IMG/VR virus record: IMGVR_UViG_3300012920_000333
Coordinates: 1 to 21,544 of that record
Source: a virus
Direction: 5' to 3' (one strand)
DNA: 21,544 nt
Below, in pieces: positions 218 through 967 of the stretch. The position numbers were made by a program, and so were the translations under genes. The notes under the pieces are model-generated. The model had not been told where the DNA came from. It saw only the letters and a list, made by a program, of their open reading frames with translations, and ran no database searches. Within the stretch, counting starts at the first letter, position 1. The number at the start of each line of letters is the position of its first letter.

Positions 218-967
218 ATGATGCGTCATGTAGACCTATGTTCTGGCATTGGAGGCTTTGCATTAGGCTTTGAATGGGCTGGCTTGAGCTACCCAGTAAT
301 GTTTTGTGACATAGAAAAGTGGAGTAGACACATTGTGTCAAAGCATTGGCCTGATGTGCCGATTGCAAAAGATGTAAAGGAATTAGCAAATGACCCAGAT
401 GGACTTATTCCAGACTGCGACATCCTCACAGCAGGATACCCCTGCCAACCGTTCAGCGTTGCAGGTAGACAAAAAGGCGTTGAAGATGACCGCCACATCT
501 GGCCGTACATCTGCAAAATTGTTGCACAAAAAAGACCCACTTGGTGCATTTTCGAAAATGTTTATGGTCACATCTCATTGGGGCTCGATGAAGTGCTTTC
601 TGACTTGGAAACCGAAGGCTACTCCAGTCGGACGTTTATTGTTCCAGCTTGCGGTGTCTATGCCCCACACAAAAGAGATAGAATATATATTGTGGCCTAC
701 ACCGACAGCCAGAGATTACAAGGGCGGTTATCAGGGTGGCAGAATAAGGAACGGGAAAGTCAGTTGGGATACGCTCGATGTAGCAGTACAATACACAGAC
801 AACCAATCCAAAACGGGTGGGCAGTTGAACCCTCAATTTGTCGAGTGGCTCATGGGATACCCAGAAGGGTGGACAGACTTAGAGGACTAGGAAACGCAAT
901 CGTGCCTCAGATTGCTATGCGAATAGGGCAAACAATTAAGGCAGTAGAGGAACAAGATGGGCGGTAA
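218..967 (+). CDS. C5-cytosine DNA methyltransferase
   Basis: This 249-residue protein should transfer a methyl group from S-adenosylmethionine to C5 of cytosine in DNA. The conserved motifs are in order: motif I (DLCSGIGGFALGFEWAG, residues 6-22), motif IV with the catalytic cysteine (GYPCQPFS, Cys76), motif VI (ENV, 113-115), motif VIII (KRDRIYIVA, 152-160), and motifs IX/X (VDRLRGLGNAIVPQIA, 218-233). It is short for the family: only about 60 residues separate motifs VIII and IX, so the target-recognition region is small and the target site cannot be predicted. The ATG at 218 is followed directly by a second ATG at 221. With no matching nuclease beside it, it is probably an orphan phage methylase that masks phage DNA from host restriction. 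A second reading frame inside it (390-890) also looks coding. Confidence 0.95.
   Translation: MMRHVDLCSGIGGFALGFEWAGLSYPVMFCDIEKWSRHIVSKHWPDVPIAKDVKELANDPDGLIPDCDILTAGYPCQPFSVAGRQKGVEDDRHIWPYICKIVAQKRPTWCIFENVYGHISLGLDEVLSDLETEGYSSRTFIVPACGVYAPHKRDRIYIVAYTDSQRLQGRLSGWQNKERESQLGYARCSSTIHRQPIQNGWAVEPSICRVAHGIPRRVDRLRGLGNAIVPQIAMRIGQTIKAVEEQDGR
376..381 (+). promoter_or_regulatory. Internal Shine-Dalgarno for the overlapping ORF
   Basis: AAAGGA lies eight bases upstream of the ATG at 390, which is ideal ribosome-binding spacing. It sits inside the methylase gene, where the methylase itself has no use for it. It supports independent initiation of the +1-frame ORF at 390-890. Confidence 0.55.
390..890 (+). 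CDS. Overprinted protein in the +1 frame of the methylase
   Basis: This 166-codon ORF lies wholly within the methylase gene, shifted +1. Its product looks like a real phage family, not a random shadow. It starts MTQMDLFQTATSSQQ, continues with CFLTWKPKATPVGRLLFQLA (69-88) and LWPTPTARDYKGG (101-113), and ends LNPQFVEWLMGYPEGWTDLED (146-166). From memory, the 'L-W-P-T-P-T-A-x-D-x-K-G' and 'L-N-P-x-W-V-E-W-L-M-G-x-P-x-G-W-T-D-L' signatures recur in phage and prophage proteins annotated as methylase-associated or hypothetical. A Shine-Dalgarno AAAGGA (376-381) precedes the ATG; an in-frame ATG at 399 is an alternative start. The function is unknown. An accessory or alternative product of the methylase locus is inference. 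The main rival explanation is that the frame is open only because the methylase sequence constrains it. Confidence 0.6.
   Translation: MTQMDLFQTATSSQQDTPANRSALQVDKKALKMTATSGRTSAKLLHKKDPLGAFSKMFMVTSHWGSMKCFLTWKPKATPVGRLLFQLAVSMPHTKEIEYILWPTPTARDYKGGYQGGRIRNGKVSWDTLDVAVQYTDNQSKTGGQLNPQFVEWLMGYPEGWTDLED

Follow-up and report, generated by a model that had tools for sequence, protein, structure and literature searches.

Can one stretch of viral DNA encode two genuine proteins in two reading frames, and, if so, what is the second of them? The question is raised by IMG/VR record IMGVR_UViG_3300012920_000333, whose 21,544 bases (the window, i.e., the whole stretch of DNA analyzed here) contain two overlapping ORFs on the same strand, which we call alpha and beta. 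Alpha (positions 218 to 967; 249 aa) matches the C5-cytosine methyltransferase family PF00145 with an E value of 3.2e-38, a match that stops at residue 179. Beta (positions 390 to 890; 166 aa counted from its ATG) lies within alpha in the +1 frame and matches phrog_1008 with an E value of 3.5e-35; both ORFs, like the features within them located below, are on the plus strand. Long same-strand dual-coding genes are thought to be rare in bacteria and tailed phages. We conclude, with a probability of roughly 0.86, that the locus encodes a split C5-cytosine methyltransferase, an alpha/beta pair of chains that share their DNA.

Relatives of beta were found in the +1 frame of a methylase gene at 83 of the 83 other loci recovered with a beta-seeded search (80 loci on viral contigs and three phage records added later). 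The reverse search, seeded with alpha and sharing some loci with the first set, returned an open, homologous +1 ORF at all 80 loci, where the longest open stretch had a median of 208 codons in the +1 frame versus 47 in the +2 frame. We also scanned bacterial genomes, using one genome per species and a single beta motif as the seed, which gives the breadth of the arrangement and not its frequency. Among the matches listed, 80 of 80 loci had beta in the methylase +1 frame (78 fully nested, 2 partly overlapping), in genomes of the Firmicutes, Acidobacteria, Alphaproteobacteria, Bacteroidetes, Chloroflexi, Verrucomicrobia, and others; we assume that these bacterial loci are prophages. No locus with beta but without alpha occurred among the beta-seeded loci or the bacterial matches listed, and phrog_1008 was matched by all 84 aligned beta members. 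The preliminary description of this DNA had asked whether +1 homologs always lie inside a methylase gene and had named a +1 frame broken in close methylase homologs as one observation that would speak against dual coding; the +1 homologs were consistently overprinted on methylases in all three sets, and the +1 ORF was missing from none of the 80 alpha-seeded loci. Judged by sequence comparison, the nested arrangement has been conserved in viruses and in prophage-like loci from numerous bacterial phyla. A broken alpha was seen at a single locus (L066:2299-2922), where alpha stops at 2805 and beta runs on without a stop to the end of the contig, perhaps owing to a sequencing or assembly fault near that end.

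The alpha and beta frames are both real genes under selection. We permuted the synonymous codons of alpha 200 times, with its protein sequence and codon usage unchanged, for 53 homologs with an alpha identity of 42 to 74% to the window sequence. The beta frame contained 0 stops in the 53 real homologs, whereas the permuted genes averaged 5.8 stops each, and its similarity to the window lay above the null by 6.8 SD on average over beta residues 1 to 95 and by 5.6 SD over residues 96 to 166, values that come from homologs sharing kinship and are not independent tests. One homolog (L081) failed the permutation test in the C-terminal half, which is probably a misalignment at an insertion. Dual coding at 390 to 890, as originally proposed, was thus upheld by the dual-frame selection check, with both frames constrained beyond the synonymous-shuffle null, and the motif pairs that had been quoted for the two frames do share bases.

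The signals for beta initiation bear a similar imprint. A Shine-Dalgarno AAAGGA (376 to 381) lies 8 nt upstream of the beta ATG (390 to 392), which straddles the alpha codons Asn58 (AAT) and Asp59 (GAC). Wherever Asn is present at the site that provides the ATG, its codon is AAT (63 of 63 genes), versus 391 of 783 Asn codons at other positions of these genes, and the Lys codon within the Shine-Dalgarno reads AAG in 65 of 67, versus 433 of 949 elsewhere. An AGGA-type site at a spacing of 8 was found in 62 of the 65 homologs possessing a Shine-Dalgarno, in agreement with the ideal spacing claimed early on. Because the synonymous sites of both the Shine-Dalgarno and the ATG are fixed, we infer that beta is initiated independently of alpha.

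Alpha is the catalytic chain of a C5 methyltransferase without the motif IX region. In an 84-sequence alignment from which the motif columns were read, motif I for AdoMet binding (DLCSGIGGF; 233 to 259) is invariant or nearly so from D6 to F14; motif IV (PCQ; 440 to 448), which holds the catalytic Cys76, has invariant P75 and C76 and a nearly invariant Q77; motif VI (ENV; 554 to 562) has invariant E113 and N114; motif VIII (HKRDRIYIV; 668 to 694) has invariant H151, R153, and R155; and motif X (GNAIVPQ; 890 to 910) has invariant G225, N226, and P230. Alpha does not qualify as a single-chain C5 methyltransferase (PF00145), as motif IX and the TRD are absent. At the place where these are expected, there is a linker (residues 166 to 224; 713 to 889) that is predicted to be disordered in the AF2 model (pLDDT <50), after which motif X comes back at high confidence, with the next helix at pLDDT >90. 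The model adopts the large-domain fold of HhaI, HaeIII, and DNMT1 (Z of about 17 to 21, about 21 to HhaI); two rows from phage records were left out of the alignments behind the structure models. The statement in the preliminary description that the methylase frame carries all diagnostic motifs therefore needs correction for motif IX, which is encoded in the +1 frame. The beta ORF ends where alpha motif X begins: the first base of alpha motif X is the last base of the beta stop codon. Further along, the end of alpha is overlapped by an ORF (957 to 1286) that is PDDEXK nuclease-like (PF24608, E = 5e-8) and labeled as a RusA-like Holliday junction resolvase in PHROGs, and an ORF at 1974 to 2792 resembles PAPS reductase family proteins (read from SFSGGRTSG). 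Phage C72C1 (L082) has an annotated PAPS reductase too, a short way downstream of its methylase.

The C-terminal part of beta is, by homology, the motif IX region missing from alpha. Three parts can be distinguished along the chain: an N-terminal part (residues 1 to 99; 390 to 686) that lies over alpha motifs IV-VIII and is modeled at pLDDT 67 to 83 for residues 31 to 90; a variable, TRD-like WPTPTA...D...K region (687 to 821), which hhalign aligns to what precedes motif IX in single-chain methyltransferases; and motif IX itself (QLNPQFVEWLMGYPEGWTDLE; 822 to 884), where beta is at its most conserved (mean pairwise identity, 0.78). Beta had no Pfam match, and no Pfam family was consistent over all beta members, but PHROG 1008 carries the label "DNA methyltransferase." We liken beta to the missing part of alpha because single-chain methyltransferases carry a beta-family segment between motifs VIII and X: In prophiGD91-2 gp27 and Daenerys gp70, the phrog_1008 segment lies there in frame (E = 4e-58 and 2e-72, respectively), and hhalign of the beta profile against prophiGD91-2 gp27 gave an E value of 5e-7 over beta 103 to 161. 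One PADLOC orphan-methyltransferase profile (oMTase) was matched by both chains, by alpha over profile positions 4 to 159 and by beta over 297 to 353 (E = 5e-4 for beta). In the beta-like chains of mycobacteriophages FoulBall and Eagle, NPAFAEWMMGWPDGW or LNAAFSEWMMGWEEGW is followed by motif X. The model of beta was weak (mean pLDDT, 61), and comparing this weak model with solved structures and in a fold search gave chance-level matches only. We place the region before motif IX on beta, with some uncertainty as to how recognition is split between the chains. The length of beta differs widely among loci (about 160 to 370 codons), and several LLPTPxxxDxxG-type repeats precede motif IX at L169:1143-2774, L171:634-1911, and L167:1261-1845; the repeats and the length variation may reflect target-recognition modules.

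A two-chain enzyme of this kind has a precedent. M.EcoHK31I (YGGCCR) was reportedly described by Lee, Kam and Shaw in 1995 as a bacterial C5 methyltransferase of two polypeptides. The gene for its small subunit is nested inside that for the large subunit in another reading frame, and M.EaeI is similar to it. The large subunit of M.EcoHK31I carries motifs I-VIII and X together with the assigned TRD, and its small subunit carries motif IX (PMC3404938). The pair described here has the same motif layout, with I-VIII and X on the large chain and IX on the small one, and is alike in its nesting, with the small-subunit gene in the +1 frame. It differs from M.EcoHK31I in coming from an uncultured virus, in having no recognized restriction partner, in its smaller alpha (249 aa), and in the assignment of the region before motif IX to beta and not to the large chain. 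Alpha and beta thus most likely form an M.EcoHK31I-like split C5 methyltransferase, an analogy drawn from the layout of motifs. M.AquI is similar in having the catalytic motifs I-VIII on one chain and the recognition region and motif IX on the other, but its motif X belongs to the small subunit (PMC3404938), whereas here motif X is on alpha and beta stops where motif X starts. AquI-like chains do occur among phages, since FoulBall gp5 and Eagle gp77 are small chains bearing motif X. Single-chain phage methyltransferases like prophiGD91-2 gp27 have the same domains in one frame and are neither split nor dual coding. The "g55 internal gene" of Paenibacillus phage Shelly and the +1 ORF in phage N15 gp58 belong to the PHROG 1008 family and show the same +1 nesting. 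A beta-type ORF is annotated in Shelly and in Xanthomonas phage PhiXhv-18 and was missed in N15, where gene 58 (L165:963-1958) is overprinted alike and the unannotated +1 product ends in SGGQLNPHHSRWLMGLP.... In the available portions of the P. larvae phage papers, we found no discussion of the internal gene, and the literature searched, which lay mostly outside subscription journals, yielded no account of a widespread overprinted C5 methyltransferase. Alpha and beta are fresh examples of an arrangement that is already known and sparsely documented; the idea that the second product has no known role does not stand, given the M.EcoHK31I precedent (PMC3404938) and the PHROG 1008 label.

Other readings of the locus have to be weighed against a split methyltransferase. 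It is extremely improbable that the +1 ORF simply results from methylase codon usage and conservation: Conserved genes can be overlaid by long spurious ORFs, but here stops are absent from 53 homologs where the null has 5.8 per gene, the longest open +2 stretch has a median of just 47 codons, and synonymous constraint acts on the beta Shine-Dalgarno and start. A chance ORF was likewise ruled out by the codon-permutation null. A ShiLan-type insertion was considered as well, the ShiLan domain being an HNH endonuclease segment inserted out of frame in phage methylases (PMC11855218). We rejected it, as beta has no HNH Pfam match and the overlap spans the core motifs IV-VIII with no insertion.

Programmed frameshifting to +1 after motif VIII would produce one chain with motifs I-VIII, the TRD, and IX and would leave the upstream +1 ORF incidental. 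Single-chain methyltransferases with that motif order exist, and after motif VIII, the +1 frame does carry on the canonical domain order. We nevertheless consider frameshifting unlikely, as strong constraint acts on the +1 frame already before motif VIII (zN 6.8), the beta Shine-Dalgarno and ATG are kept at synonymous sites, and the product would be without motif X, yet motif X is conserved in alpha. It is about equally unlikely that beta is an independent protein with some other function, e.g., in anti-restriction or regulation, and just happens to be encoded within the methylase gene. Such a protein would fit an N-terminal half without recognized relatives outside its own family and a model that matches no solved fold, but the homology of the C-terminal part to the motif IX region of single-chain methyltransferases, the absence of exactly that region from alpha, and the lack of any beta-without-alpha locus among the beta-seeded loci and the bacterial matches listed argue against it. 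The preliminary description had offered an anti-restriction factor as one guess, and we found no evidence for such a role apart from methylation; its other guess, a methylase partner or specificity subunit, agrees well with a beta that bears the motif IX region missing from alpha.

In the split methyltransferase that we favor, alpha, read in frame 0, would provide AdoMet binding, the catalytic loop, and motif X, with a variable linker replacing the DNA-recognition domain. Ribosomes would start beta at a Shine-Dalgarno and ATG of its own within the alpha coding sequence, and beta would bring the TRD-like region and motif IX, completing the DNA-recognition side. The two chains would then come together as a single active enzyme with a specific target sequence for methylation, and both would be required for its activity. 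Such methylation could shield the phage's own DNA from host restriction. This protective role is probable because no restriction-enzyme gene was recognized among the ORFs neighboring alpha and beta.

The overlap also carries a trace of how it may have arisen. Over beta 1 to 95, alpha is the more conserved chain (mean pairwise identity of 0.66 to 0.75 versus 0.53 to 0.60 for beta), whereas beta is more conserved over residues 96 to 110 (0.59 versus 0.52) and 143 to 165 (0.78 versus 0.63); the stretch in between is variable in both frames. Both canonical-methylase homology and the higher conservation thus switch frame along the overlap, from alpha to beta, which suggests reciprocal overprinting, with motif IX and the TRD ancestral and the alpha linker new in one part, and alpha IV-VIII old and the beta N-terminal domain new in the other. 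We hold this origin to be slightly favored. Phages display single-chain, nearly adjacent, partly overlapping, and nested forms: In Eagle, the chains of the split methylase (gp78/gp77; L167:750-1845) overlap by 23 nt, and in FoulBall (gp6/gp5; L166:687-1638) by 209 nt, which makes these two possible intermediates between the single-chain and nested forms. If reciprocal overprinting is true, frameshifts split a single-chain methylase, and each chain then evolved a new out-of-frame protein, so that the nested arrangement would be conserved in the genomes of viruses and bacteria while mostly going unannotated.

What appears to have been under-appreciated so far is the breadth of occurrence of this arrangement and the frame switch of conservation along the overlap. 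The second chain is often dropped or left unexplained in annotation, and many "orphan DNA methylases" may consequently be half enzymes, a problem that would touch databases and cloning experiments alike. The series of single-chain, adjacent, partly overlapping, and nested forms provides natural material on the origin of overlapping genes.
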